NCBI GenBank assembly: GCA_005888095.1
Contig: VBKF01000095.1
Location: 1-64,000 of the forward strand
Direction of reading: 5' to 3'
DNA: 64,000 nucleotides
Source: Deltaproteobacteria bacterium
Lineage (GTDB): Bacteria > Desulfobacterota > Binatia > DP-6
A program made the position numbers and the translations under genes. Positions 49,724 to 64,000 of this stretch are shown piece after piece. Positions within the stretch are counted from its first letter, which is position 1. Each line of letters begins with the position of its first letter. The notes under the pieces are model-generated. The model did not search any database. It was not told the origin of the DNA and saw only the letters and a list, made by a program, of their open reading frames with translations.

Positions 49724-50317
49724 ATGGAGCCCGTGGACGACGCGAACACCGGCGACCTCCGTTGCCTCGAGTGCAGCACTGCGATCAGCGAGGGCGTGGC
49801 GACCGTCCGCACGGCGCGCGGCGTCTTCTGCGCCGACTGCTTCGCGCGCCTGAAGCAGCAGGCGCAGCAGGTCCTCGCGGCCCAGTCCGAGAACATCGAC
49901 TTCGCCCGCGCCCTGGCGGGCGCGTTGCTCGGTGGAATCGGCGGCGCGGTGGTGTGGTGGGGGGTGACGATCGCCACCCACGTCAGCTTCGGCCTGGTCG
50001 CGATCGTGATCGGCGTGGCGGTGGGCAAGGGCATCGTCATGCTCACCGGCGGCAAGCGGGCGCAGAGCCTCCAGGTGATGTCGGTCGTGGTGGCGGCCGC
50101 GGCGTATGCCGTCGGCACCTATCTCACCAAGCGCACGTTCATCCTCGAGTACCTGCACCGGCAGGGCAAGCTGGTCGACCTGCCGCTCGTACCGACCAGC
50201 CCGAGCTACTTCTTCGGGGTCGCGTCGGCGGGCTTCCAGGTCTTCGATCTCGTCTTCCTGGCCATCGTCGTGCACCAGGCATGGAAGATCCCGGCCCCGG
50301 TCCGGCTCCCGGGCTGA
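49724..50317 (+). CDS. zinc-ribbon membrane protein
   Basis: 197 residues from ATG 49724. The N-terminus carries a CLEC...CADC zinc-binding pair (residues 14-40). Three to four hydrophobic helices follow (LAGALLGGIGGAVVWWGVTIA, GLVAIVIGVAVGKGIVML, VMSVVVAAAAYAVGTYL, VFDLVFLAIVVH). The gene ends 3 bases before an M50 protease gene, so the two are probably co-expressed, perhaps as a partner or substrate. Confidence 0.75.
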   Translation: MEPVDDANTGDLRCLECSTAISEGVATVRTARGVFCADCFARLKQQAQQVLAAQSENIDFARALAGALLGGIGGAVVWWGVTIATHVSFGLVAIVIGVAVGKGIVMLTGGKRAQSLQVMSVVVAAAAYAVGTYLTKRTFILEYLHRQGKLVDLPLVPTSPSYFFGVASAGFQVFDLVFLAIVVHQAWKIPAPVRLPG

Positions 50318-50320
50318 TCC

Positions 50321-51259
50321 GTGGCCGAGCAGACTCTGTCGGAGCGCGATCGGCACCTGCGCAACCTGGGCGCGGTCGCCGAGCACCTCTTCACGCAGCA
50401 GGCTCAGGCATCCCCCGCGCCCGCGCGCGAGGGACAGGTGGCGACCCGACTCCGGCGCTGGGGGGCGCCGGGCGTACTGCTCGCGGTCCTGCTCGGCAAG
50501 CTCAAGTGGCTCCTGGTCGCGGCCAAGTTCCTCAAGCTGAGCACGCTGCTCAGCATGCTGCTCATGGTCGGGGTCTACGGCACGATTTGGGGGATACCGT
50601 TCGCAGTCGGGTTCGTGCTCCTCATCTTCGTCCACGAGCTGGGACACGCCCTGGTGATGCGTCAGCAAGGCATCCCCGCCGGGCCGCCCGTGTTCATCCC
50701 GTTCGTGGGGGCCGTGATCGCGATGCGCGGCCTGCCGCGCGACGCCTACGTCGAGGCGGTGGTGGCGATCGGCGGCCCGCTGCTAGGCTCGCTCGGCGCC
50801 GCCGTGTGCCTCGCCGCCGCCGTGACGACCGGCGAGCGCTTCTGGTACGCGCTCGCCTCGACCGGCTTCCTGATCAACCTGTTCAACCTGATCCCGCTCT
50901 ACCCCCTCGACGGCGGCCGGATCATCGGCGCGATCAGCCGCTGGCTGTGGCTGGTGGGCGCCGCCGTCGGCGTGACCGTGTTCCTGATCACGCAGTCGCC
51001 GCTCATGCTCCTCGTCCTGCTGTTCGGGCTGCTGAACGTGGGCCAGCTGCGGCGCGGCCCGGCCGCGGACTACTATCGCATCCCGGCCGCGCGCCGGATC
51101 GCGATCGGGACGGCCTACCTGGGGCTCGTGGTGGCGCTCGTGTGCGCCAGCACGTGGACGGAGCAGGCGCTGCGCGGTCTTCCGGCGGCCGCCGCGCAGG
51201 CGGCCGCGCTGGTGGCGCTCGGGGCTACCGCGGCACGCTCGTCCGCCGAGCGGGTGTAG
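50321..51259 (+). CDS. site-2 protease family (M50) metalloprotease
   Basis: 312 residues from a GTG at 50321. Intramembrane zinc protease: HELGHALVM (HExxH) and the third ligand in NLIPLYPLDGGR (LDG). About six membrane helices with a long N-terminal cytoplasmic segment. M50 proteases cut anti-sigma factors or transcription regulators within the membrane. It follows the zinc-ribbon membrane protein at 3 bases. Confidence 0.92.
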   Translation: MAEQTLSERDRHLRNLGAVAEHLFTQQAQASPAPAREGQVATRLRRWGAPGVLLAVLLGKLKWLLVAAKFLKLSTLLSMLLMVGVYGTIWGIPFAVGFVLLIFVHELGHALVMRQQGIPAGPPVFIPFVGAVIAMRGLPRDAYVEAVVAIGGPLLGSLGAAVCLAAAVTTGERFWYALASTGFLINLFNLIPLYPLDGGRIIGAISRWLWLVGAAVGVTVFLITQSPLMLLVLLFGLLNVGQLRRGPAADYYRIPAARRIAIGTAYLGLVVALVCASTWTEQALRGLPAAAAQAAALVALGATAARSSAERV

Positions 51260-51283
51260 GCGCCCCCGTCCCGGGCCGAGGGC

Positions 51284-52270
51284 TCACGGCCTGCCCACCT
51301 CGAGCACCGCCTTCCCCACGACCTCCCGCCGCGCGAGCGCGCCCAGCGCCTCGGCGGCCTTCTCGAGAGGGAAGCGGTGCGAGATGGCGGGCTTCAGCTT
51401 TCCGTCCTTCCACCAGTCGAAGAGCAGCTCGAAGTTCCTTCGATTCGTGTCCGGCTCGCGAGCGGCGAATCCCCCCCAGAAGACGCCGACCACCGAGCAC
51501 CCCTTGAGGAGGATCAGGTTTACCTTGGCGCTCGGAATGGCGCCGCTCGCGAACCCGATGACGAGGAGCCGCCCGTCCCACGCGATGCAGCGGAGCGATT
51601 GATCGAAGACGTCGCCGCCCACGGGATCGTAGATCACGTCGGCGCCGCCGCCGGTGATCGCTTTCACGGCCTCCTTCCAGTCGGGGTTCGTCCTGTAGTT
51701 CACCAGGTGCTCGACGCCGTAGAGCTCCTCGAGCCGCGCGAGCTTCCGGTCGTCGCCGCCCGTCGCCACGACGCGCGCGCCGAGTATCTTGCCGACCTCG
51801 ATCGCGGCGGTGCCGACGCCACCCGTCGCGCCGTGCACGAGCAACGACTCGCCGGGTCGGAGCCGTGCCCTCTGCACGAGGGCGTACACGGTCGTTCCGT
51901 ACGTCGTGGGGAGCACGGTCCCGACCTCGTAGGGCATTCCCTCGGGCATCCGGAGCGCCTTGTCGCGAGCGACGACGACCTCCTCGGCGAAGCCGTTCCA
52001 CCCGCACATGCCGATCACGCGATCGCCGACCGAGAATCCCTTTGCCTCGGCTCCCACCTCGATCACGTCGCCCGCGACCTCGCCTCCCGGCGCGAAGGGA
52101 AGCGGCGGCTTGAACTGGTACTTGTTCTCGATGATGAGCAGGTCCGGGAAGTTCACGCCTGCGGCGCGCACGCGGATGCGCACGTCGCCCGGGCCGAGCG
52201 GGGGGCGCTCCGTGTCCTCGTAGACGAGCTTTTCGGGCGGCCCGTATGCCTTGCAGAGGACGGCTTTCAT
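51284..52270 (-). CDS. quinone oxidoreductase, zinc-independent MDR family
   Basis: 328 residues. Medium-chain dehydrogenase fold with GHGVNFPDLL-like N-domain (AAGVNFPDLLIIE), PFAPGGEVAGDVIEVG and the NADPH motif VHGATGGVGTAAIEVG. No Zn-binding Cys set, as in quinone oxidoreductases (QOR). It reduces quinones or enones with NADPH. Divergent from the PIG-L lipoprotein gene. Confidence 0.92.
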   Translation of the reverse strand: MKAVLCKAYGPPEKLVYEDTERPPLGPGDVRIRVRAAGVNFPDLLIIENKYQFKPPLPFAPGGEVAGDVIEVGAEAKGFSVGDRVIGMCGWNGFAEEVVVARDKALRMPEGMPYEVGTVLPTTYGTTVYALVQRARLRPGESLLVHGATGGVGTAAIEVGKILGARVVATGGDDRKLARLEELYGVEHLVNYRTNPDWKEAVKAITGGGADVIYDPVGGDVFDQSLRCIAWDGRLLVIGFASGAIPSAKVNLILLKGCSVVGVFWGGFAAREPDTNRRNFELLFDWWKDGKLKPAISHRFPLEKAAEALGALARREVVGKAVLEVGRP

Positions 52271-52360
52271 CGCGGGCGACGATAGCGGAGCGCTCGCGCG
52301 GCGTCAGCGGGGGGCCGATGTCGCATTGCGGTCTGCGCGCGTTGATGTCACGAGCACGGT

Positions 52361-53551
52361 ATGGGTGCGCTCGGGCTCAAGGCCGCTGCGTGCGCCGTGG
52401 CCGCGGTCGTTGCGACGGTGCTCGGCGGCTGCCGGCATCGCTGTCCGCCGTCGGCGAGCGGCCCGCTGCACCGGCCGCCGCCACTCGGACGCCGGCTGCT
52501 CGTCGTCGCTCCGCATCCGGACGACGAGGTGCTCGCGGCGGGCGGTCTCATGGCGCGCATCCTGCGGCAGCCCGGGACGGTGCACGTCGTCGTCGCGACC
52601 GACGGCGAGGCCGGGGTGAACCGCACCCGGGCGCCGGATCTCGGGGACGCACGGCGCGGAGAGACGCGCCGGGCACTCGCCGACCTCGGCCTCGCGCCCG
52701 CGGACGTCGAGTTCCTGGGCTACGCGAACAACAGCCTCGCCAACGCCTGGGGCAAGCGCTGGCGCGCCGCGCGGCGCGGCGCCGACGAGACGTCGAGCGG
52801 CGCGCTCGTCGAGGCGCTCCGCGGCGCGCTCCGCGCCGCGGCGCCCGACACGATCGTCCTCCCGATGTCGCTCGACGAGCACGTCGACCACTACGCGCTC
52901 GGCCGCTTCGCGCTCCTCGCTCTCCTCGGCGAGGCGCCCGTGCCGCGGCCCACCGTCCTCGGCTACCTGGTCCACGGGAAGGGCCGCTGGCCCGCGTGCG
53001 GCTCGATCGGTCTCCGCAGCGTGCCGCCGCTGCCCCCGGGGTGCGCAGCACTCTTCCCGTGGACCGGGCTCCCGGTGGACCGCACGTTCAAGGCGGGGCT
53101 CATTCGGGAGTACCGAACTCAGCTCGGCGCGACACTCCTCCGGCACGCGCGCGCCATCGAGTCGTTCGCCGAGGGCCTGGTGGTCGAGCCGGGCCGCCCG
53201 GCCGCCGCCTGGCGGCCGGGCGTCCGTCCCGGCGCGGATCGCATCGCGATCCTCGTGCCGCGCACCCCGTGCCTCGTCGACCCCGCCGCGGGCGACCGGC
53301 TTCGCCTCCGCTACTTCCGGGACGGCGTGCTCGACGAGCGCCTGGTCACGCTCGCGCCGGCGGTCGACGTGCGTGGCGGTCCGCCGGGCGGCGAGCTCGT
53401 TCCCGCGCGCGACGTGCAGGTCGCGGTCCGGCGGGACACGGTCCACGTGGTCCTCGACATGGCGTCCTTCCGGGACGTCGGCGGCGCGGTGCTCGAGGTC
53501 GTCGCCGGCGAGCGCCGGGAAGCGCCGGCCTGGCTTCTCCGCTGGTCGTGA
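52361..53551 (+). CDS. PIG-L family deacetylase lipoprotein
   Basis: 396 residues. The signal peptide ends in VATVLGGC, a lipobox, so the protein is probably lipid-anchored. LmbE/PIG-L motif: APHPDDEVLAAGG (zinc and catalytic Asp) and SLDEHVDHYALGRFA. PIG-L enzymes remove acetyl groups from N-acetylglucosamine-like sugars. About 130 residues after the catalytic domain form a further domain of unknown kind. It stands before a sugar nucleotidyltransferase. Confidence 0.88.
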   Translation: MGALGLKAAACAVAAVVATVLGGCRHRCPPSASGPLHRPPPLGRRLLVVAPHPDDEVLAAGGLMARILRQPGTVHVVVATDGEAGVNRTRAPDLGDARRGETRRALADLGLAPADVEFLGYANNSLANAWGKRWRAARRGADETSSGALVEALRGALRAAAPDTIVLPMSLDEHVDHYALGRFALLALLGEAPVPRPTVLGYLVHGKGRWPACGSIGLRSVPPLPPGCAALFPWTGLPVDRTFKAGLIREYRTQLGATLLRHARAIESFAEGLVVEPGRPAAAWRPGVRPGADRIAILVPRTPCLVDPAAGDRLRLRYFRDGVLDERLVTLAPAVDVRGGPPGGELVPARDVQVAVRRDTVHVVLDMASFRDVGGAVLEVVAGERREAPAWLLRWS

Positions 53552-53647
53552 CGGCAGCACCGTCGCGGGCTCGCGGATCACCGGGCGGCGCAATCACTCG
53601 GTGCGCTCGATGCTCATGCGGCCAGACGGTCGATAGGGTTCGGCGGC

Positions 53648-54631
53648 GTGGCGCGTCCGAAACCCCGCCGGGCGCCCGCGCATCGAACCCGCGTGACGCA
53701 CCGGCCGACAGACGGTCTCTGGGCTCTCGTGCTCGCCGGCGGCGACGGGACCCGCCTCCGGGAGCTGACGCGGCTGATCAGCGGCGCGCCGATCCCCAAG
53801 CAGTACTGCCGCATCCTCGGCGACCGCTCCCTCCTCGAGGCGACGCTCGCGCGCGTCGCCCCGCTCGTGCCGCGGGAGCGGACGGTCGTGATCGTCAACC
53901 GCGGGCACCTCGAGCTCGCGTGGTCCCAGCTCGCCGCGCTGCCCGCCCAGAATCTGCTCGTGCAGCCGGGGAACCGCGACACCGGCCCCGGCGTGCTCTT
54001 CAGCCTTCTTGCCCTGGCCCGCCGGCAGCCGGACGCGACGGTTGCCGTGTTTCCGAGCGATCACCACATCGGCGACGAGCGCCGGTTCCGGGCGCACGTC
54101 GCTCAAATGGCGCAGCTTGTCGACGAGCATCCCGAGAAGATCGCGCTTCTCGGGGTCGAGCCCAACCGGCCGGAAGGAGGCTTCGGCTACATCCTGCCGG
54201 GACAGCGGCTCTCTTCGGTCACCGGCGACGCGGCGTTCCACGTGGTCTCGTTCCACGAGAAGCCCACACCCAGCCTGGCCGCCCGGATCGTCGGCCGCGG
54301 CGCGCTCTGGAACTCGTTCGTGATGGTCTTCCGCCTGAGCCGGATGCTGGAGCTGCTGCACCAGGTCCGGCCCGCGGGCGTCTCGCGGCTCGCGCGCCTG
54401 CTCGACGACCCCGAGGCCCTCGTGGCGGCGTACCCGAGCATCGCGCCGTGGAACTTCTCGCGCGACTTCCTGGTGCGCATTCCCGAGCACCTGGCCGTCG
54501 TGCGGGCCGCCGACGTGGGCTGGAGCGACTGGGGGACGCCCGCGGCGATCGAGCAGACCCTCACGTGGTCGCGGTACTCTTCCGCCGAGTACCAGCCGCG
54601 GACGCGTGTCCCGCCGTTCACGACGTCGTAG
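53648..54631 (+). CDS. mannose-1-phosphate guanylyltransferase-like, foreign C-terminus
   Basis: 327 residues from GTG 53648. Sugar-phosphate nucleotidyltransferase core: VLAGGDGTRLRELT, IPKQYCRILG, DRSLLEATLAR, FPSDHHIGDE and FHEKPTPSLAARI. Up to GWSDWGTPAAIEQT (about residue 304) it matches the family; the last 23 residues (SRYSSAEYQPRTRV) are the antisense of the secreted gene on the opposite strand. So the original end is lost and the last part reads into a junction at about 54560. A decayed second copy of residues 215-300 lies at 61464. Whether the chimera is active is unclear. Confidence 0.82.
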   Translation: MARPKPRRAPAHRTRVTHRPTDGLWALVLAGGDGTRLRELTRLISGAPIPKQYCRILGDRSLLEATLARVAPLVPRERTVVIVNRGHLELAWSQLAALPAQNLLVQPGNRDTGPGVLFSLLALARRQPDATVAVFPSDHHIGDERRFRAHVAQMAQLVDEHPEKIALLGVEPNRPEGGFGYILPGQRLSSVTGDAAFHVVSFHEKPTPSLAARIVGRGALWNSFVMVFRLSRMLELLHQVRPAGVSRLARLLDDPEALVAAYPSIAPWNFSRDFLVRIPEHLAVVRAADVGWSDWGTPAAIEQTLTWSRYSSAEYQPRTRVPPFTTS

Positions 54632-55753
54632 AGCCAGACGCCGTCGTCGAACGTGGTCGTGCCCTGCGTGAGCGTCGGTGTGGTCTGGACGACCCAGCTA
54701 CCGTCGGCCTGCTCGATCGCCTGCCAGCTGTTCAGGTTGTGGCCTTCGCCGAGGTAGCGGTGCTTGACGCCCTTCCACGTGATGGTGCCGACCGGCGCGT
54801 CCGGGAAGTTGATCAGGCCGTTCGTTTGCGGCCCGAGGACCTCGCGCGGGGGATCGAGGCTCACGGGAAGCGGGTTCACGGCCGACGGGCTGCCGACGAG
54901 CGGCACGCCCGCCGCGCCGGCGCCGACGTTGATCGCATAGACCGCGACGGCGTGGAGATTCCCGTCGAGCGCCGGACTCGGCGTCCACGTGAAGCCATGG
55001 TTCGGCTCGGTCGTCAGACCGGCATCCACCAGGTCCTGGCGCGGCTGATTCGCCGTGAGGAACGCCCGGAACGTCCCGTCGACCGTAGATGTGGACGGTG
55101 ATCGGGTTCCCATTGGCGTCCCGGTCGGTGGCCCAGCCGCTCACCACCGTCGCGGTCGCCTGCTCGATCGTCCCCGTGATGCCCTCGGGTCCGGGGGCGG
55201 CCCAACGATTCGGCGATCCGTCGAGCGTCACACGGAACGTCGTCGCGTCGCAGGCGTTGTTGTTGGCCGCCCCGGAGCCGATGCGGAAGCTGAGGAGGTC
55301 GCCGCGCTCGACCGGCACGTGCGGGAGCGTGAACGGCGTGAGGCTACCGCCGTTCGCCATCGTCGTCGGACCCCAGACGAGAAGCGAGTTCCGGTAGATG
55401 GATGCCACGATGCCGTCGCCGCAGTTCGGATCGGCGTCCGACAGGTCGACGCTGACGTTCGCGCTGCCGATGAAGGGGCTCCGCCAGTTGCGCGCGGCAG
55501 CGAGCGTCGGGCCGGGGTGTCCGCCGATCGCCCAGAGCCAGAGGTACGCGATCGTCGGATGCTTCCACGTCCCGGCCGAGGCGTCGAAGGTGAGGTTGTC
55601 GTCGCGAAGCGGGGCGGAGCCGTACTGGTAGAACCAGTCGGACTGCCCCTGTATCCCCGAGAACTGGCCCGCCGAATCCCAGGTCGCTGCGACGCCCGGC
55701 GAACGGGCGAGCAACAGACCGATGACACAGGCCGCCATCGCAACACGTGCCAT
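54572..55753 (-). pseudogene. secreted protein disrupted by a one-base frameshift
   Basis: Starting at ATG 55753 with a signal peptide (MARVAMAACVIGLLLARSPG), the protein has a beta-sandwich module (FSGIQGQSDWFYQYGSAP, LWAIGGHPGP, SLLVWGPTTMANGG) and a GWATDRDANGNPITVHIY module. At 55083-55084 the frame shifts: the next codons make sense only one base later (VDGTFRAFLTANQPRQ), as if one G had been inserted. The continuation gives HAVAVYAINVGAG and a C-terminal part ending near TRVRGWYSAEEYRD. No own stop codon follows; the frame runs into antisense of the guanylyltransferase. So it is either a recent pseudogene or a sequencing error, plus a lost 3' end. Confidence 0.7.
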
Positions 55754-55814
55754 TGGCGTCTCCTTTCGTGCGAGAGGGGAGCTCCGTCAATTCCCGGCAG
55801 CAACGCCTCGACCG

Positions 55815-58772
55815 CTACCACCCGCTATTTCCATCTCCCCTGGTGACAGTGAACCTGGCGCCCGACTCGTCGCCTAGGCCTCCGCTGCCCGGATTGGCGA
55901 CGACTACGCCTGTAAAGGTGGCGTCGCCCCTGGCGCCGGACGCCATATGAATGCCCCAAGTGCCGGCGTCCGTAATTCCGATGCTTGTCAACGAGCTGTA
56001 CGTGACCGTCTTCCAGAGAGATGAGTCATTCTGCACACCGTCAATCTGGAGCCCCGAATAGGTCGGACTGACGATGTCGATGTCGCTGATGAGCAAACCG
56101 CTCAGAGAACTGTCGTAAGCCCAGATCTTGAGAGCGCCATGCTGCTGGTTCCACATGGGACCCCCGGCGCGGACGAGGTTGTTGCGTCGGACGCTGGTGA
56201 TGCCGGCAAACGGGAATGACGTGAACTCTTGGGCGATCAGAATGCCAGGGTAGGTGACCACATCAGAGCAAACGTTGTCTTCGACCTTGTTGTCCTGGCC
56301 ACCGTAGATGGCGTAGCAGTTCCCACGCCAAGGAATCTGTACCGTATTGAAGTGGATGATGTTATTCAGGTTGACGCCGTTGGGGGTATCCGATCGTGAC
56401 CACGAAGCCACCCCATCGTCTCCCGTATTGCGGAAGTGGGAGTTCACCACCTCCGAGTTGCTGGCGCCCTCGCACAGGTTGACGCCATCGGCAAAGGTGT
56501 TGCGAAAGCGGCTGCCGGTAATGACGAGACCATTGGGGCCTGGTCGGGGGTACACGCCAGCCCAATACCCGACCTGGGTATGCTCTACCCAGATGTTCTC
56601 CATGCGGGAGCCGGTGCTGCCGGCGGCGCTGGTGAATCCGTCGTTGAGCGGCAATTGACGCGTGAGGCTCTCGCCCAGGACGGCGAAGTCATAGTAGCGG
56701 CAGTTGTCGCCGGTGCACTGGAAACCGTAGGATCCATGAATGGTTGAATACCACATGCCCGCCCCGCGGATCGTCACATCCGAGACTCCCAAGACCCCGC
56801 TGTTGCTTTCGAACGTCCCAGGAGGAATCCAGACGCCGAGGCCCTGGCTCCGCGCGGTGTTGATGCAGCTCTGGATGGCCGGACCGTCATCGGTGCCGTC
56901 ATTGGGCGTCGCGCCGCAGCTGACGATGGAGAGGAAGTTGGCGGGCATCGAGAGCGGCGGTGGTACCCGCTCCAGGTCGATCAGATCCACCACATAGTAC
57001 GTCGCCATGTCCGTCATATCTTTCTGAAGCCTCACCGTCGCGCCGGCGGGGATGTCGCCTACCAGGGCGCGTGCCTCGTCGAAGAAGTGATGCGCGCCGC
57101 CAGCGCCTGGATTATTGTCCGAACTCGCCTCGCCTCCGTAGGACCAGGCATACTTTGAGGTCAGGTTGAGCTTCTGGCGGAAGGCACCGTTGACGTACAG
57201 GCTGAGGGTAGCGTCCATCCCGCCGCCCATGGGCGCATCGGGGATGACGTAGCGTACCACGATCGAGTTGGCGGGCTGGCCGGCCGTGATCTGGACATAG
57301 TGCCCGGGCATGTCCAGGCGTACGGCGCGCCGTCCCGAGGACTCGGCGGCGAAATCCCCAAACACCCGGCTGGGGCCGAGGATGCTGCCGTTGATGATGC
57401 CGTTTTCCGCCTCATACTCCACCCAGGGCACTGCTGCGCCACGCGGCGCCACCTCCAGCAGCCATTGGGCGCGCTGCGAACTGGTAGAAACGTTGCCGTA
57501 CTGCGCGTAGCCCTGCAAATTCTGGATATGGACGATGTTCGTATTCTGCCAGACATTGCGGATGATCGTGTAGCCCGGTGTGGGGGCGTTTTCCACCGTC
57601 CACCGGGCGCTCATCCAGACATCGGAGATGGGGATACTCTCGACGTACCCGTACAGGTGCTCGATCGACATATAGTTGCCGGTGGCGCGATTCCTGATGC
57701 GCTTGGTTCCGGCGTAGTCCTCGATCACCCAATGGGCGGTCGTATCGGTGGTGCCCGGGGTGCCGTACCTGACCTGATTGCTGGCCTCGAAGAGGTACAT
57801 GCCGTTCGAAAGGTTCTTGATGCGCACGTAGCTGCCTGCCGCTGGTATAGGAGCAATCGGAGCATTCTCCAGCAGCCACTGGGCGCTGGCGAAGGTGGTA
57901 GGAACGTTGCCGTACTGCGCGTACCCCAGCAAATTCTGGGTGTGGATGATGTTCGTGTTCTGCCAGACATTGCGGATGATGGTGTAGCCCGCGGTCGGCG
58001 CACTCTCCAACGTCCATCGTGGGCTCATCCAGGCATCGGAGATGGGGATACTCTCGACGTACCCGGACAGGTGCTCGATCGACATGTAGTTGCCGGTGGC
58101 GCGGTTCTTGATCCGCTTGCTCCCAGCGTAGTCCTCGATCAGCCAGTGAGAGGTGGTATCCGTGCTGGCCGGGCTGCCGTACAGAACATGATGTGTGCCC
58201 TGGTAGACGTGATTTGTATCCTCGTAGAGGTAGGCGCCGGTCCAGAGATTCTTGATCCGCACGTAGCTTGGCACGAGCGGCGCGTCCTCCAAGAGCCACT
58301 GGGCGCTCGAGAGACTTGTAGGGACGTTGCCGTACTTCGCGTACACCTGCGGATCCTGGAGGTAGATGATATTCGTGTTCTGCCAGACGTTGCGGATGAT
58401 GGTGTAGCCTGCGGTCGGCGCGTTCTCCAACGTCCAACGGGGACTCATCCAGGCATCCGAGACGGGAATACTCTCGACGTACCCGGACAGGTGCTCGATC
58501 GACATGTAGTTGCCGGTGGCGCGGTTCTTGATACGCTTGCTCCCGGCATAGTCCTCGATTACCCAGTGTGAGCTCGTATCGATGCTGGATGGACTGCCGT
58601 ACCGGACCTGATTGCTGGCCTCGTAGAGGTACGTGCCGTTCCAAAGAGCCTTGATCCGCACGTAGTTGGCCGCCGCGGTTGGCATGGGAGCGAAGAGGGC
58701 GGCATACATAACCATCGCGAGACAGCGCGTCGGGAATCGGCTCCCGCTGTGGCTCTTCGGCGTCGCCGCCAT
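55815..58772 (-). CDS. secreted GH87-like alpha-1,3-glucanase with three beta-trefoil-like repeats
   Basis: 985 residues from ATG 58772 with GAGGAGG upstream. Signal peptide to residue 35. Three similar modules (about 37-169, 170-314, 315-444), each with YVRIKxLxxGxYLxE, RIKNRATGNYMSIEH and YTIIRNVWQNTNI, look like beta-trefoil/fascin-type folds. A carbohydrate-binding module of the CBM6/35 type spans 450-600 (EYEAENGIINGSI). The C-terminal right-handed beta-helix begins at 610 (SCGATPNDGTDDGPAIQ). Asp762 (NTFADGV) and Asp785-Asp786 (NTGDDGV) show the spacing I recall for the catalytic Asps of GH87 mycodextranases. GC is clearly lower than in flanking genes, so transfer is likely. Confidence 0.78.
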   Translation of the reverse strand: MAATPKSHSGSRFPTRCLAMVMYAALFAPMPTAAANYVRIKALWNGTYLYEASNQVRYGSPSSIDTSSHWVIEDYAGSKRIKNRATGNYMSIEHLSGYVESIPVSDAWMSPRWTLENAPTAGYTIIRNVWQNTNIIYLQDPQVYAKYGNVPTSLSSAQWLLEDAPLVPSYVRIKNLWTGAYLYEDTNHVYQGTHHVLYGSPASTDTTSHWLIEDYAGSKRIKNRATGNYMSIEHLSGYVESIPISDAWMSPRWTLESAPTAGYTIIRNVWQNTNIIHTQNLLGYAQYGNVPTTFASAQWLLENAPIAPIPAAGSYVRIKNLSNGMYLFEASNQVRYGTPGTTDTTAHWVIEDYAGTKRIRNRATGNYMSIEHLYGYVESIPISDVWMSARWTVENAPTPGYTIIRNVWQNTNIVHIQNLQGYAQYGNVSTSSQRAQWLLEVAPRGAAVPWVEYEAENGIINGSILGPSRVFGDFAAESSGRRAVRLDMPGHYVQITAGQPANSIVVRYVIPDAPMGGGMDATLSLYVNGAFRQKLNLTSKYAWSYGGEASSDNNPGAGGAHHFFDEARALVGDIPAGATVRLQKDMTDMATYYVVDLIDLERVPPPLSMPANFLSIVSCGATPNDGTDDGPAIQSCINTARSQGLGVWIPPGTFESNSGVLGVSDVTIRGAGMWYSTIHGSYGFQCTGDNCRYYDFAVLGESLTRQLPLNDGFTSAAGSTGSRMENIWVEHTQVGYWAGVYPRPGPNGLVITGSRFRNTFADGVNLCEGASNSEVVNSHFRNTGDDGVASWSRSDTPNGVNLNNIIHFNTVQIPWRGNCYAIYGGQDNKVEDNVCSDVVTYPGILIAQEFTSFPFAGITSVRRNNLVRAGGPMWNQQHGALKIWAYDSSLSGLLISDIDIVSPTYSGLQIDGVQNDSSLWKTVTYSSLTSIGITDAGTWGIHMASGARGDATFTGVVVANPGSGGLGDESGARFTVTRGDGNSGW
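57441..58664 (-). repeat. three tandem ~400-bp repeats inside the GH87-like gene
   Basis: DNA repeats at about 58266-58664, 57831-58265 and 57441-57830 encode the three YVRIK modules. Long stretches are near-identical between copies, for example the code for TAGYTIIRNVWQNTNI. The second copy has an extra 12 or so residues (TNHVYQGTHH). The similarity suggests recent tandem duplication. Confidence 0.8.
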
Positions 58773-58773
58773 A

Positions 58774-58971
58774 TCATTCCTCCTCTGCGACGTTCGCGCT
58801 GCTCAGGGCCGTGAATGAAAGGGAGACACGGTCGCTACAAGCTACACGGCGCGCGCTCACCAACCCGAGGGCAGCATGGTCCGCGCAGGCAACGGCCGTC
58901 GTGGGTGCCGTCAGCGCGAGGATGGCAGCTGCGGTCGTCACCGCGGTCGGTGGATTGGATCTTCCGGCCAT
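58774..58971 (-). CDS. possible small secreted peptide upstream of the GH87-like gene
   Basis: 65 codons ending 1 base before the GH87-like ATG. The first 28 residues look like a signal peptide (TTAAAILALTAPTTAVA), after which no family is recognisable. The RBS of the next gene is encoded in its last codons (EEE). It may be a real leader/partner or chance; evidence is weak. Confidence 0.3.
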   Translation of the reverse strand: MAGRSNPPTAVTTAAAILALTAPTTAVACADHAALGLVSARRVACSDRVSLSFTALSSANVAEEE

Positions 58972-59234
58972 CGAGTGGCTTCTCCTCCCTCGCCGGCGCC
59001 GGCGGCGAACGTCGACGGGATCTGGAGCGTGCGGGAGGCGTGAGTGTAGGCGTCCGGGGCGGACGGGAGAACTCCGTCCCGCCCCATTTTGCCTCGAATC
59101 TTCGTGGTATTCCGCCGACGTTTTATGGTGAGCATGCCGCGTCGGCGCGCGCGATGTGGATCTCGAAGCGCTCGCGGGCAAGTGGTTTCCGTCCCGTGAA
59201 GGCGGGAGGCCAGGTGGGCGTCGCGATGCGGCCC
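58972..59234. other. no gene recognised
   Basis: About 260 bases between the small peptide and the SDR remnant. Short open frames exist on both strands but none shows a motif, signal peptide or good ribosome binding site. It may hold the promoter for the minus-strand GH87-like unit. Confidence 0.3.
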
Positions 59235-59545
59235 TCAGCGGCGGGTACGCCCGAGGGCCGGGCCGAGCGCAGCCTCGATGACGTCGACGATCTTCTGCAG
59301 CGATCCGTCGGCGGTCGAGAGGTCCTCGGTCGCGGTGTCCCGAGCTCCGTCCACGACCGGATAGCAGTCGCGACCTCCGTCGGATCGGAACGCGAGCCGA
59401 AACCCGTCCCCGCCGTGGGTCCGCTCTCCGCCGAGAGCACACGGACGCCGCTCGCGCGCAGCTCGCGATCGATGGCGATCGATGCCGCCTGGAGGGCCGT
59501 CTTGCTCGACGCGTAGAGCGCGACGGGAGTGCTACAAGGGCGGAA
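59235..59545 (-). pseudogene. short-chain dehydrogenase remnant, frame-disrupted
   Basis: On the minus strand, codons from about 59545 read TPVALYASSKTALQAASIAI, then RELRASGVRVL, the catalytic YxxxK helix of short-chain dehydrogenases. The first half of the enzyme is missing. After VRVL the SDR frame becomes nonsense, while a neighbouring frame reads on as DGSLQKIVDVIEAALGPALG and stops at 59235. So either a frameshift joins two pieces or two relics abut. Confidence 0.5.
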
Positions 59546-59584
59546 ACAGCCGCGCGCCGAGGGGCGCGCGCTCGGGAGGACCGA

Positions 59585-60049
59585 ATGGCACTACGGGGAG
59601 GATGCGCATGCGGCGCGATCCGGTACGAGCTCCGCGACCGCCCGCTGATCGTGCACGTATGCCACTGCCGCGACTGCCAGCGTATCACGGGCAGCGCCTT
59701 CGTGATCAACAACTGGATCGAGGAGAAATGTGTCGCCGCGAGCGGCGCTGCGCCCAGGTCGTTCACGCTGCCCGGCGGCAGCGGGAAGCGGCACGACGTC
59801 TTGTTCTGCGATACGTGCGGCACCACCGTATGGAGCCGCTACCACATCGTCACGAGCCCTTGCCTGTTCGTCCGTGCCGGGACGCTCGACGATCCGAGCG
59901 CCGTCACGCCGGACGTCCACATCTTCACGCGGAGCAAGGTGCCGTGGCTCGCGCTCCCGAAGGGCGTGCCGGCGTTCGAGTCGATCTACAAGCTCGACGA
60001 CGTGTGGTCGCGCGAGAGCCGGGAACGCCTGCGCCGGAACGCCGGATAG
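59585..60049 (+). CDS. GFA/CENP-V family protein
   Basis: 154 residues. Zinc-binding pattern GGCACGAIRYE, CHCRDCQRITGSAF and LFCDTCGTTVW is that of glutathione-dependent formaldehyde-activating (GFA, CENP-V) enzymes. Despite the name, most members have unproven activity. Alone on the plus strand; GGAGGACCGA precedes the ATG. Confidence 0.88.
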   Translation: MALRGGCACGAIRYELRDRPLIVHVCHCRDCQRITGSAFVINNWIEEKCVAASGAAPRSFTLPGGSGKRHDVLFCDTCGTTVWSRYHIVTSPCLFVRAGTLDDPSAVTPDVHIFTRSKVPWLALPKGVPAFESIYKLDDVWSRESRERLRRNAG

Positions 60050-60194
60050 CGGCACGTCCCTCGTCGACGGACGGCGGCGCGGAGCGGGATCGTGTTCGAG
60101 GCGGCGGCCCCGATGCCAGTGACGCCGCCTTCATCGAACCCGACCTGCGCTCCGCCCGCGTCCGTCCCACTACGATTCCTTCACGCTTGCCGGT

Positions 60195-60422
60195 TCACTG
60201 CTGAATGAGCGTGTCCACGCCGATGACGTTCATTCGGCCGTTGGACACCGTGCGCGTATCGCCCGCGGTCATGCAATTCACGTTGATCGTCACCACGGAC
60301 GACAGACCGCCGGCGGCCGTGAACACGCCCTCGAGCGAGACGCCTCCCTTCGCGGAGTTGCCACCGTTGTCTCCCACGAGCAACGTGTCTCCGGACCCGA
60401 ATGTCCTGCGGTCGGCGCTGCG
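60195..60422 (-). pseudogene. C-terminal fragment of an unknown secreted protein
   Basis: A minus-strand frame ending at 60195 reads FGSGDTLLVGDNGGNSAKGG, SLEGVFTAAGGLSSVVTINV and NVIGVDTLIQQ. The beta-rich, Gly/Ser pattern looks like the end of a surface or secreted protein, but there is no proper start (TTG at 60383 at best) and no family is recognised. The bases from 60050 to 60194 hold nothing I recognise. Confidence 0.3.
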
Positions 60423-60439
60423 ATCCTGTATGGATGGGC

Positions 60440-60469
60440 TTGACGAATTGTCTGGATTATCTGTACAAT
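60440..60469 (+). promoter_or_regulatory. vapBC-like promoter and inverted repeat
   Basis: TTGACG at 60440-60445 and TACAAT at 60464-60469 are 18 bases apart, a near-consensus pair. The predicted start lies at about 60475-60477, on the antitoxin ATG (60476), so the mRNA would be leaderless. ATTGT (60447-60451) and ACAAT (60465-60469) form an inverted repeat over the promoter, suitable for autoregulation. Confidence 0.65.
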
Positions 60470-60475
60470 CTCCGC

Positions 60476-60670
60476 ATGAGGGCGAGCATCAGGAAGAGGA
60501 CGTACAACCTCGACGGTGACATGATTGAGCGCGTGCGCCGTCTCTACAATGCGAAGACAGACACCGAAGCCATCCAGAAGGCCCTGCGCAAGGCGATCGA
60601 TGACCGGGAGATTGAGGACGCCCTCGACGCGTTGCTACGTACGGGGCGGTTCCGGACAGTCTACCGCTGA
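60476..60670 (+). CDS. vapB: VapB-like antitoxin
   Basis: 64 residues. RASIRKRTYNLDGDMIERV is a short strand followed by helix, the beginning of a ribbon-helix-helix-like fold; TDTEAIQKALRKAIDD is the second helix and DALLRTGRFRTVYR the toxin-binding tail. This is the DUF2191/VapB type seen before PIN toxins. The TGA overlaps the toxin start as CTGA. The ATG lies 6 bases past the -10, so it is probably leaderless. Confidence 0.8.
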   Translation: MRASIRKRTYNLDGDMIERVRRLYNAKTDTEAIQKALRKAIDDREIEDALDALLRTGRFRTVYR

Positions 60671-61119
60671 AGTACGTTCTCGACACCAACGTCTACCTCG
60701 AAGCGGCTCGCTCCGACGAGGCGCGGGCACAGTTCCTCGAGGCGTTCATTCCTCTGCTGCCCGCGACGTTCCTCTCCGCCGTCGTCGCCTGTGAACTCGC
60801 TGTCGACGCGACGGACCGTCGCACACGGGGCCTGGTGCGCCAGTTCCTGCTGCCGATGGAGCGCACTGGGCGCATCGTGAGCCCGGTATTCGACGATTGG
60901 ATCGACGCGTCCGACGTAGTGAGCGCGATCGAGGAGCGCGACGGGGGCTGGCGGTCGAAGCTCCCCGCGCTACTCAATGACATTATGATCTCGCTCTGCG
61001 CGCGCAGGATCGGCGCAACGCTGATCACGTACAACGGCGAAGACTTCCGTCTCATCAGGCGTCACAGAGAATTCTCTCTCCGGGTGCTGGCTGGAGCGAG
61101 GCGCGAGAGTCGTCGCTGA
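60667..61119 (+). CDS. vapC: PIN-domain toxin, VapC-like, CTG start
   Basis: 150 residues read from CTG 60667. The PIN fold acidic residues are visible: Asp6 in YVLDTNVYLEAA, Glu43 in VACELAVDA, Asp105 in LLNDIMISLCA and Asp126 in TYNGEDFRLI. VapC toxins are Mg-dependent RNases acting on tRNA or rRNA. No ATG, GTG or TTG lies in frame before the conserved VLDTN strand; CTG overlapping the antitoxin TGA is the only arrangement preserving the whole fold. Alternative: a frameshift with the true start in the antitoxin end. Confidence 0.82.
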   Translation: MKYVLDTNVYLEAARSDEARAQFLEAFIPLLPATFLSAVVACELAVDATDRRTRGLVRQFLLPMERTGRIVSPVFDDWIDASDVVSAIEERDGGWRSKLPALLNDIMISLCARRIGATLITYNGEDFRLIRRHREFSLRVLAGARRESRR

Positions 61120-61310
61120 GCAATGGGATCCTGCCAGCGGATCGCCTTCGCCATGGTCTTGTTGGTCACGTCGACACGTCGGGCTATCGCCGATGCGCTC
61201 ATGCCAAGACTCTCTAGAAGGGCGGCGCGGCCAGCGATCGCCGGGTAGGTCCGCGCCAAGAGCGGCGGCCCAGCCAGCGGAATGCCGCGCGTGGCTCCGC
61301 ACGCAACCAC
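61062..61310 (-). pseudogene. helix-turn-helix fragment
   Basis: A minus-strand frame reads LGMSASAIARRVDVTNKT, a convincing helix-turn-helix, but nothing else of a full protein is present and its end overlaps the toxin gene on the other strand. It may be a relic of a mobile-element protein or regulator. The region 61311-61460 holds nothing else I recognise. Confidence 0.3.
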
Positions 61311-61463
61311 GCGATCCGTCGCATGACAGCGTCACCGAGCGCAACGCCAGAGTGAAACACGGCGTTGCGCGCGGAGAGCAGCCGTCGTGTCGAGGACGCG
61401 GGGCCGCCCCTCCCGCCTCGGGTCGACACGCAGGGTCACGACATGCGCGCCTTTCTCGGCGTC

Positions 61464-61716
61464 GTGGGCCGCGGCGCGCTCTGGAGCTCGTTCGTGATGG
61501 TCTTCCGCCTGCGCCGCATGCTGGAGTCTGCTGCACCAGGTCCGGCCCGCGGGCACCTCGAGGCTCGCGCGCCTGCTCGACGACCCCGACGCCTTCGCGG
61601 CCGCGTACCGCCGTGGAACTTCTGGCGCGACTTCCTGGCGCGCATTCCCGAGCACATGGCCGTCGGGCGCACCGCCGGCATGGGCTGGAGCGATCGGGGT
61701 ACGCCCGCGGCGATCG
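61464..61716 (+). pseudogene. degenerate copy of the guanylyltransferase-like gene
   Basis: This stretch resembles 54290-54550 at the DNA level (roughly 80-90 % by eye). It decodes as GRGALWSSFVMVFRLRRMLE, then breaks at an inserted T (61527), and continues as LLHQVRPAGTSRLARLLDD. After a 10-base deletion near 61607 the frame is regained as PWNFWRDFLARIPEHMAVG and GWSDRGTPAAIA. There is no start or catalytic part, so it is a relic. Confidence 0.75.
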
Positions 61717-61807
61717 CGCCGAGCGGCGATGGGCGTGTTCCCGCCCTGGCAGGTTGCGCGCGCCCGGCTAGCGAAACCGTCGCCGATCTGCTCGCATCCA
61801 AACCGTC

Positions 61808-62920
61808 ATGAAGGCAATCGCCGTCTTTCCGGGCCGTCGCGAGGTGAAGCTGATCGAGCAGGAGCCCCCGACACTCAGGGCGCCCACTGACGTGAGGCTC
61901 CGCATGCTCGACGTCGGCGTGTGCGGGACCGATCGCGAGATCTGCGCCTTCCAGTACGGCACCCCGCCGGCGGGGAGCGAGCACCTGGTCATCGGCCACG
62001 AGTCGCTGGGCGAGGTCGTCGAGGTCGGATCCGCCGTGTCACGGGTCAAGCCGGGAGACCTCGTGATCACCATGGTGCGCCGGCCGTGTCTGCACGAGGA
62101 CTGCATGGCCTGCCGCGCCGGCCGGCAGGATTTCTGCTTCACCGGTGACTTCTCGGAGCGCGGCATCAAGCGCCTGCACGGCTTCATGACCGAGACCGTG
62201 GTCGACGACGAGCGCTACATGCACGTCGTCCCGCGGGCGCTGCGCGATGTGGCGGTGCTGGTCGAGCCGCTCACCATTGCCGAGAAGGCGCTGATCCAGG
62301 TGGGGCAGGTGCAGCAGCGGCTCCCCTGGGCCTGCGGGATCGATCCGCGCACGGAGCGCCGGTTCCGGCACCGTGCCGTCGTCCTTGGCGCCGGCCCCGT
62401 GGGGCTGCTCGGGGCGATGGCGCTCGTCGCGGCCGACTTCGACACCTCGGTCTACTCGCGCGAGCCGGCGCCGAACCCCAAGTCGGACCTGCTCGCCTCG
62501 ATCGGCGCCCGCTACCTCTCCGCGCAGGAGACGTCGATCGAGCACCTCGCCGAGCAAATCGGCAACATCGACCTCGTCTACGAGGCCACGGGCGCGTCCT
62601 CGATCGCGTTCCAGATGATGGAGGTGATCGGCACGAACGGCATCTTCGTGTTCACGGGCGTGCCGGGGCGGAAGGCGCCGATCGAGGTCGACACCGACGT
62701 CATCATGCGGAACCTCGTGCTCAAGAACCAGGTCGTGTTCGGGACGGTGAACGCGGGCCAGGAGGCCTTCGAGACCGCCATCCGCGACCTCACGGTCTTC
62801 CAGCAGCGGTGGCCGGCGGCGGTGCACGCGCTCATCACCGGTCGCTACCCCGTCGAGGCGTATCGCGACCTCCTGGTCGGGCCGCCGCAGGGGATCAAGA
62901 ACGTCCTCCGCTTCGCATAG
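61808..62920 (+). CDS. glucose 1-dehydrogenase-like MDR enzyme
   Basis: 370 residues from ATG 61808. Zinc medium-chain dehydrogenase of the archaeal glucose dehydrogenase type: GVCGTDREICAF with the catalytic Cys, GHESLGEVVEVG, a structural-zinc lobe (CLHEDCMACRAGRQDFC) and the nucleotide motif VVLGAGPVGLLGAMAL. It oxidises glucose or similar aldoses with NAD(P). It is immediately followed by a debranching-type enzyme. Confidence 0.88.
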   Translation: MKAIAVFPGRREVKLIEQEPPTLRAPTDVRLRMLDVGVCGTDREICAFQYGTPPAGSEHLVIGHESLGEVVEVGSAVSRVKPGDLVITMVRRPCLHEDCMACRAGRQDFCFTGDFSERGIKRLHGFMTETVVDDERYMHVVPRALRDVAVLVEPLTIAEKALIQVGQVQQRLPWACGIDPRTERRFRHRAVVLGAGPVGLLGAMALVAADFDTSVYSREPAPNPKSDLLASIGARYLSAQETSIEHLAEQIGNIDLVYEATGASSIAFQMMEVIGTNGIFVFTGVPGRKAPIEVDTDVIMRNLVLKNQVVFGTVNAGQEAFETAIRDLTVFQQRWPAAVHALITGRYPVEAYRDLLVGPPQGIKNVLRFA

Positions 62921-64000
62921 CCGAGCCGAGTGGCTCGAAGCCGACGGCCTCGGCGGCTTCGCCTCCGGCACCGTCAGCGGGATCCGGACCCGGCGCTACC
63001 ACGCGCTTCTCCTGACCGCGACGTCGCCGCCGGCCGGCCGCGTGGTGCTGGTGAACGGGTTCGAAGCGTGGCTCGAAGGCCCGAGCGGCACGTTCGCCCT
63101 CACCTCGCAGCGCTACGCGCCGGACGTGATTCATCCCGATGGCGCCGAGCGCATCGAGGCGTTCGAGCCCGATCCCTGGCCCTCCTGGGTGTTCGCGTTG
63201 CCCGACGGCACCCGGATCGAGCACGGTCTCCTCGTCCAGCCCGGACGGGCGGCGATCGCGCTCTACTGGCGCCTCGTCGACGGTCCGGGCGGCACGCTCG
63301 CCCTCCGGCCGCTGCTCTCCGGCCGCGACTACCACGCGCTCCACCACGAGAACCCGGCCTTCCACTTCGGGGCCGACGTTGTCGACGACCGGATCGTGTG
63401 GCGGCCATATCCCGGCCTGCCGGCGATCGTCGCCCGCTCGAACGGGAGGTACATCCACCAGCCCGACTGGTACCGCAATTTCCTCTACACGGAGGAGCGC
63501 GCCCGCGGTCTCGACCACGTCGAGGACCTCGGCTCACCCGGCACCTTCCGATGGGACCTCGGGCGCGGCGAGGCCGTCTGGACCCTCGCCGCCGAGGGAC
63601 ACGAGCCGCCGGAGGACCTCGACGCGCTCCGCGCCGCCGAGCTCGAGCGGCGCCGGCGATTTCCCACACGCCTCGACCGTGCTGCGGACGCGTACCTCGT
63701 GCGGCGGGGCAGGGGGAAGACGATCGTCGCCGGCTACCCGTGGTTCACCGACTGGGGGCGCGACACGTTCATCGCGCTGCGCGGCCTCTGCCTCGCGACC
63801 GGCCGGCTCGACGACGCCCGCGCCATCCTCCTCGAGTGGGCGGGCGCAGTCTCCGACGGCATGCTGCCGAACCGCTTCCCCGACCATGGCGAGGCGCCGG
63901 AGTTCAACGCCGTCGACGCCGCGCTGTGGTACGTGGTGGCCGTCCACGATTTTCTGCGCGTCGCTCAGGACGTTGCGCCGCGAGACCGGCGAGTGTTCGA
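62919..64000 (+). CDS. glycogen debranching enzyme/amylo-alpha-1,6-glucosidase, N-terminal part
   Basis: The frame is open from just before the end of the sugar dehydrogenase gene to the window edge. The N-terminal domain signature EWLEADGLGGFASGTVSGI then TRRYHALLL, and the later GYPWFTDWGRDTFIALRGLCL with the catalytic-domain (alpha/alpha)6 barrel start, fit archaeal-type glycogen debranching enzymes (GH133). In frame there is no ATG, GTG or TTG from about 62760 to the conserved motif, so the start is unresolved; the next GTG (about 63042) would remove the conserved part. The 3' end lies outside the window. Confidence 0.85.

Follow-up and report, generated by a model that had tools for sequence, protein, structure and literature searches.

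A predicted GH87 protein with three tandem beta-trefoil modules in a genome of the Binatia

Introduction

Fungal walls are protected by alpha-1,3-glucan, which is also a building material of dental biofilm, and for this reason enzymes of glycoside hydrolase family 87 (GH87) with strong substrate anchoring are of practical use. In the report on one GH87 enzyme, Agl-KA, a galactose-binding-like domain is described in complex with a beta-helix, Ala and Asn mutants of a triad of Asp residues are nearly dead, and an inverting mechanism via this triad is proposed by analogy with GH28 and GH49 (PMC6814745). The corresponding CatAgl_D1-type domain of a GH87 is said to resemble carbohydrate-binding modules of families 35 and 6 (CBM35/6; PMC13421300), and Agl-EK14 is reported to degrade Aspergillus wall glucan (PMC10696023). 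Here, we describe a gene at positions 55815-58772 of a 64,000-nucleotide stretch (the window) of contig VBKF01000095.1 from a Deltaproteobacteria bacterium (Desulfobacterota, Binatia). Its product is, judging from its sequence, a GH87 family member, and we consider it quite probable that the gene encodes a secreted modular enzyme, likely an alpha-1,3-glucan hydrolase anchored by trefoil lectin domains, that was acquired horizontally and then had its trefoil triplicated.

Results

A GH87 catalytic unit with an invariant Asp triad

The gene and the elements of its catalytic unit are as follows.

55815-58772, minus strand: GH87 open reading frame (ORF), 985 aa, free of internal stops
56964-57431, minus strand: CatAgl_D1, galactose-binding-like domain of the GH87 catalytic unit, aa 448-603 (Pfam, 2e-52)
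55827-56864, minus strand: CatAgl_D2, right-handed beta-helix of GH87, aa 637-982 (Pfam, 2.6e-27; PDB matches)
56487-56489, minus strand: codon of Asp762, catalytic position (position check, alignment)
56415-56420, minus strand: codons of Asp785-Asp786, catalytic positions (position check, alignment)

CatAgl_D1 and CatAgl_D2 scored 177.9 and 96.1 bits, respectively, with cut-offs of 27, and a phmmer search of the PDB matched seven sequences: six GH87 alpha-1,3-glucanases (5e-74 to 1e-54), which align to the catalytic part, and 1UPS, which aligns to the N-terminal repeats. Over aa 450-985, the predicted structure had a predicted local distance difference test score (pLDDT) mostly above 85, and the model and Pfam together gave the two-domain arrangement of a GH87 unit, a galactose-binding-like domain followed by a right-handed beta-helix. 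Asp762, Asp785, and Asp786 lie exactly where a preliminary description, made from the sequence alone, had placed them; they are invariant across 23 alignment rows (the window protein and a chosen set of 22 relatives), and their spacing, 23 residues apart and then adjacent, is that of D1067, D1090, and D1091 in Agl-KA. Because the Pfam CatAgl domains, the PDB matches, and the invariant triad agree, the GH87 assignment proposed in that description is right.

Placement of the beta-helix in a different lyase family, the alternative that the description itself had raised, was ruled out, as the Pect-lyase and Beta_helix matches in Pfam were far weaker than those of CatAgl. An extra CBM6/35 module was also ruled out: the region read as a separate module is CatAgl_D1, the integral N-terminal domain of the catalytic unit. 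By its family membership, the beta-helix would cut the glucan chain by inversion using Asp762, Asp785, and Asp786. As in Agl-KA, Agl-FH1, and Agl-ST, the galactose-binding-like domain of the protein would be packed against this helix.

Each N-terminal repeat is predicted to be a complete beta-trefoil

Ahead of the catalytic unit stand three modules, each located by Pfam, self-comparison, and profile search.

58278-58667, minus strand: beta-trefoil module 1, aa 36-165
57846-58271, minus strand: beta-trefoil module 2, aa 168-309, with a 7-aa insertion
57447-57833, minus strand: beta-trefoil module 3, aa 314-442, also modelled alone

Pfam reported three RicinB_lectin_2 stretches here (1.8e-14), and the modules share 76-81% of their residues pairwise (105/130, 98/129, and 99/129) and 82-85% of their DNA. 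Module 3, modelled alone with nine related modules aligned to it, gave a pLDDT of 96.0, a predicted template modelling score of 0.90, and twelve strands arranged in the three lobes of a beta-trefoil. When this model was searched with Foldseek and VIA-align, beta-trefoils filled the list; the best was the C-terminal domain of 1UPS (E 1.1e-10; Z 22.6, root-mean-square deviation 1.5, 127 residues, 31% identity), which a profile search of the module also matched at 1.1e-17. Since module 3 folds by itself in the model and its fold matches are all trefoils, each repeat of about 130 aa is, by modelling, a whole trefoil, and a single trefoil built of three repeats is ruled out. The full-length model had a mean pLDDT of 74.8, with modules 1 and 2 poorly modelled, probably due to the few aligned relatives covering them. 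The lobes each close with a W motif, namely HW, RW, and QW, and not QxW; the QxW count in such trefoils is reported to range from 0 to 6 (PMC11212257).

The modelling of one repeat, which the preliminary description had suggested, thus upholds its trefoil repeats but replaces its "trefoil-like" wording with three full trefoils. Its view of the modules as recent did not hold: synonymous divergence (dS) between modules is 0.46-0.60 and the ratio of nonsynonymous to synonymous divergence (dN/dS) is 0.22-0.30, so that the modules are conserved, under purifying selection, and not very recent.

The closest relatives are GH87 proteins of Chloroflexota

A genome-contig scan returned four loci, the best in a metagenome-assembled genome of the Herpetosiphonaceae in which a single trefoil precedes GH87, beside genes for a LacI-type sensor and a GH31 enzyme. 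Among 400 Chloroflexota genomes sampled, 22 held a match to the window protein, and seven GH87 proteins each carry one N-terminal trefoil of the window family, the catalytic unit being close to that of the window protein in six of them and distant in the seventh (L062/L067). An independent search with the trefoil profile found a single copy in each of 7 of these 400 genomes, always at those GH87 genes, and nowhere outside GH87 genes in this sample. In 395 genomes from the phylum to which the window belongs, the profile hit all three modules of the window gene and, apart from these, gave one weak match (6e-12), to an ORF that looks unrelated; CatAgl_D1 exceeded its cut-off in one of these genomes, the window's own, with one more below the cut-off. 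The window's own genome was likewise the only one of 98 in a set of relatives to contain a GH87.

In a quick tree of the catalytic part, the window protein and seven GH87s encoded in Chloroflexota genomes make up one clade (support 100 by the Shimodaira-Hasegawa-like approximate likelihood ratio test). Its three modules also group in a single clade (support 96/98). The nearest single trefoil to these modules, at 60% identity, is that of L062, and because it sits on the distant GH87, trefoil modules may also have been exchanged between proteins. By eye, the distant GH87 (L067) carries discoidin/CARDB-like parts as well. A further ORF (L096, in genome G253) has, by eye, several short lectin-like repeats with the same type of W motif before a phosphoesterase-like part.

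The GH87 gene thus probably arrived by horizontal transfer, its catalytic part and trefoils both coming from a lineage that is today represented among the Chloroflexota. Given the Chloroflexota clade and the single clade of window modules, the simplest story is that a one-trefoil enzyme was gained and its trefoil then triplicated, although the triplication may also have come before the transfer.

The gene lies in a segment missing from a related genome

The surroundings of the gene were compared with the matching locus of a genome from the same family (G004).

54562-61461, no strand assigned: segment of about 6.9 kb absent at the matching locus of G004 (locus comparison)
54288-54561, plus strand: left copy of an internal nucleotidyltransferase gene piece that is present twice; the gene is intact to here and has lost its native C-terminus
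61462-61722, plus strand: right copy, a 5'-truncated remnant beside the dehydrogenase gene (locus comparison)

In G004, the nucleotidyltransferase and sugar dehydrogenase genes adjoin, and the locus matches window positions 53704-54561 and 61462-63990 with an overlap of 0.27 kb. This overlap occurs twice in the window, flanking the segment. The two copies agree at 236 of 260 aligned bases, and their divergence of 9% speaks against a very recent event, unless they differed from the start. The right remnant has indels and continues into sequence like that preceding the dehydrogenase gene in a genome of the same genus (G001). G001 also does not have the segment, but the 3' part of its transferase gene is gone too, making it less clear as an empty site. 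There (L025, contig C207), the nucleotidyltransferase gene lacks its 3' half and is joined straight to the dehydrogenase flank, and the junction seems prone to rearrangement. As the two flanks of the segment align to a single uninterrupted locus in G004, contig misassembly is unlikely.

Positions 58906-61372, on the right, hold gene pieces matching scattered places in the own and related genomes, including a short-chain dehydrogenase (SDR) gene fragment, a GFA gene, and VapB/PIN-like remnants. A number of these genes are complete in related genomes or at another place in the own genome. The left part, 54562-55814, had only tiny matches elsewhere in the seven own and related genomes compared. 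With its two parts so made, the segment looks composite from its sequence, and not like one clean mobile element. No RNA or tRNA was found at its edges (Rfam over 50000-64000; tRNA search over the whole window). Phage carriage was rejected, as no relative of the trefoil module occurred in viral contigs, and so was plasmid carriage, as no plasmid match extended over more than 57% of the protein and most came from Streptomyces.

Three smaller features were noted within the segment. At 58906-59525 is a fragment resembling short-chain dehydrogenases (family by eye), with a longer copy in the same genome (G000, contig C171; 79%). The stretch 60401-61119 (plus strand), with 81% DNA identity to G002, holds VapB-like and PIN-like ORFs (weak matches, 3e-4 and 0.023) and is probably a broken toxin-antitoxin pair. 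Downstream of GH87, 54562-55753 (minus strand) is a secreted-protein-like gene with no Pfam match, an apparent frameshift near 55085, and an end cut at the segment edge.

Gain of the GH87 gene from elsewhere is well supported by these sequence comparisons, and the gene would have arrived, or been left, within the segment between the two flanking genes. Of the "recent gain" in the preliminary description, the gain stands, given the absence of the gene from relatives and of the segment from G004, while "recent" holds only in a relative sense.

Start region and base composition

Two elements mark the start of the gene.

58779-58784, minus strand: AGGAGG, ribosome-binding-like, 6 nt ahead of the ATG (from sequence)
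58668-58772, minus strand: signal-peptide-like N-terminus, aa 1-35, with a basic n-region, hydrophobic core, and AAA site (by eye)

The signal peptide and low G+C noted earlier were both borne out, the former by eye, and secretion is predicted. The gene has a G+C of 0.611 (third positions 0.804) in a window of 0.698; third-position G+C in seven other window genes is 0.89-0.94 in six and 0.747 in the adjoining secreted-protein ORF.

Discussion

The three trefoils may hold the enzyme on insoluble glucan, with weak sites adding up to firm binding; we infer this multivalent anchoring because the trefoils are restricted to GH87 proteins and are under apparent purifying selection. More tentatively, they could be a distinct GH87-bound family that binds alpha-1,3-glucan, with triplication adapting the enzyme to multivalent binding of insoluble fungal or biofilm glucan. 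Many ricin-B domains bind galactose or N-acetylgalactosamine (GalNAc)-type glycans, and it is possible, though we doubt it, that the trefoils recognize such a ligand and not alpha-glucan and so anchor the protein on the surface of a cell or a matrix, which would leave the reading of the enzyme itself untouched. The nearest fold, from the endo-beta-galactosidase 1UPS, and several galactose-type lectins in the fold list fit this idea, but confinement of the trefoil family to GH87 proteins in the Chloroflexota sample points to the enzyme's own substrate.

It is unlikely that the enzyme is instead a mycodextranase cutting the alpha-1,4 bonds of mixed alpha-1,3/1,4-glucan (nigeran). Both activities occur in GH87 (PMC13421300), but the best structural relatives of the window protein are alpha-1,3-glucanases, a weak argument on this point. 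Least probable is a relic, an enzyme once active that came in with broken neighbours and is now unused: the apparently frameshifted, truncated secreted-protein gene and the gene pieces at 58906-61372 suggest it, but the 985 stop-free codons, good ribosome-binding site, full triad, and module dN/dS (which reflects time since triplication and not only time in the host) argue otherwise.

We prefer the reading of a secreted, trefoil-anchored GH87, against which several points weigh. NCBIfam gave no match for the window protein; the catalytic tree does not single out its exact sister within the Chloroflexota clade, and the donor could lie outside the genomes sampled; the gene stands among fragments and could be degenerating or silent, although its reading frame is intact; and, with mycodextranases in the same family, the alpha-1,3-glucanase call is a prediction. 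Alpha-1,3-glucans other than those of the fungal wall exist, and the fungal wall is a plausible target.

Comparison with described enzymes

Agl-ST (PDB 7C7D), Agl-KA (5ZRU), and Agl-FH1 (6K0M) share the two-domain unit and Asp triad with the window protein and match its aa 438-985, but their chains are catalytic units only, with no trefoil matched, whereas the window protein has three. The endo-beta-galactosidase of C. perfringens (1UPS) has a beta-trefoil in common with it, but a single one, at the C-terminus of an enzyme whose substrates are galactosides. Agl-EK14 of Flavobacterium sp. EK-14 is also a GH87 with a ricin-B-type lectin domain; it has one such domain, C-terminal, as well as a secretion domain and two domains of Ig-like type (PMC10696023), unlike the three N-terminal domains here. 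The trefoil-GH87s of Chloroflexota (L002/L031, L039-L043) have the same domain order and 54-57% identity over the trefoil and catalytic part, but carry one trefoil and a longer linker where the window protein has three and a short one.

No second GH87 with a triple trefoil was found in the Chloroflexota and own-phylum genomes searched (400 and 395), actinomycete GH87s being covered only in part, and none with tandem trefoils in the literature searched. GH87 and trefoil-bearing GH87 (Agl-EK14) were already known, and GH87s with an N-terminal trefoil are present in Chloroflexota genomes; what is new is that the trefoil stands in three tandem copies and that such a protein occurs in this lineage, so that of the "new binding array" first proposed the tandem triplication is new and the combination of trefoil and GH87 is not. 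Overall, this appears to be an ordinary enzyme of mildly new architecture, otherwise a routine gained hydrolase, and its triple-trefoil form and the single-trefoil forms of Chloroflexota make a natural pair for the effect of lectin number on an enzyme with an insoluble substrate.
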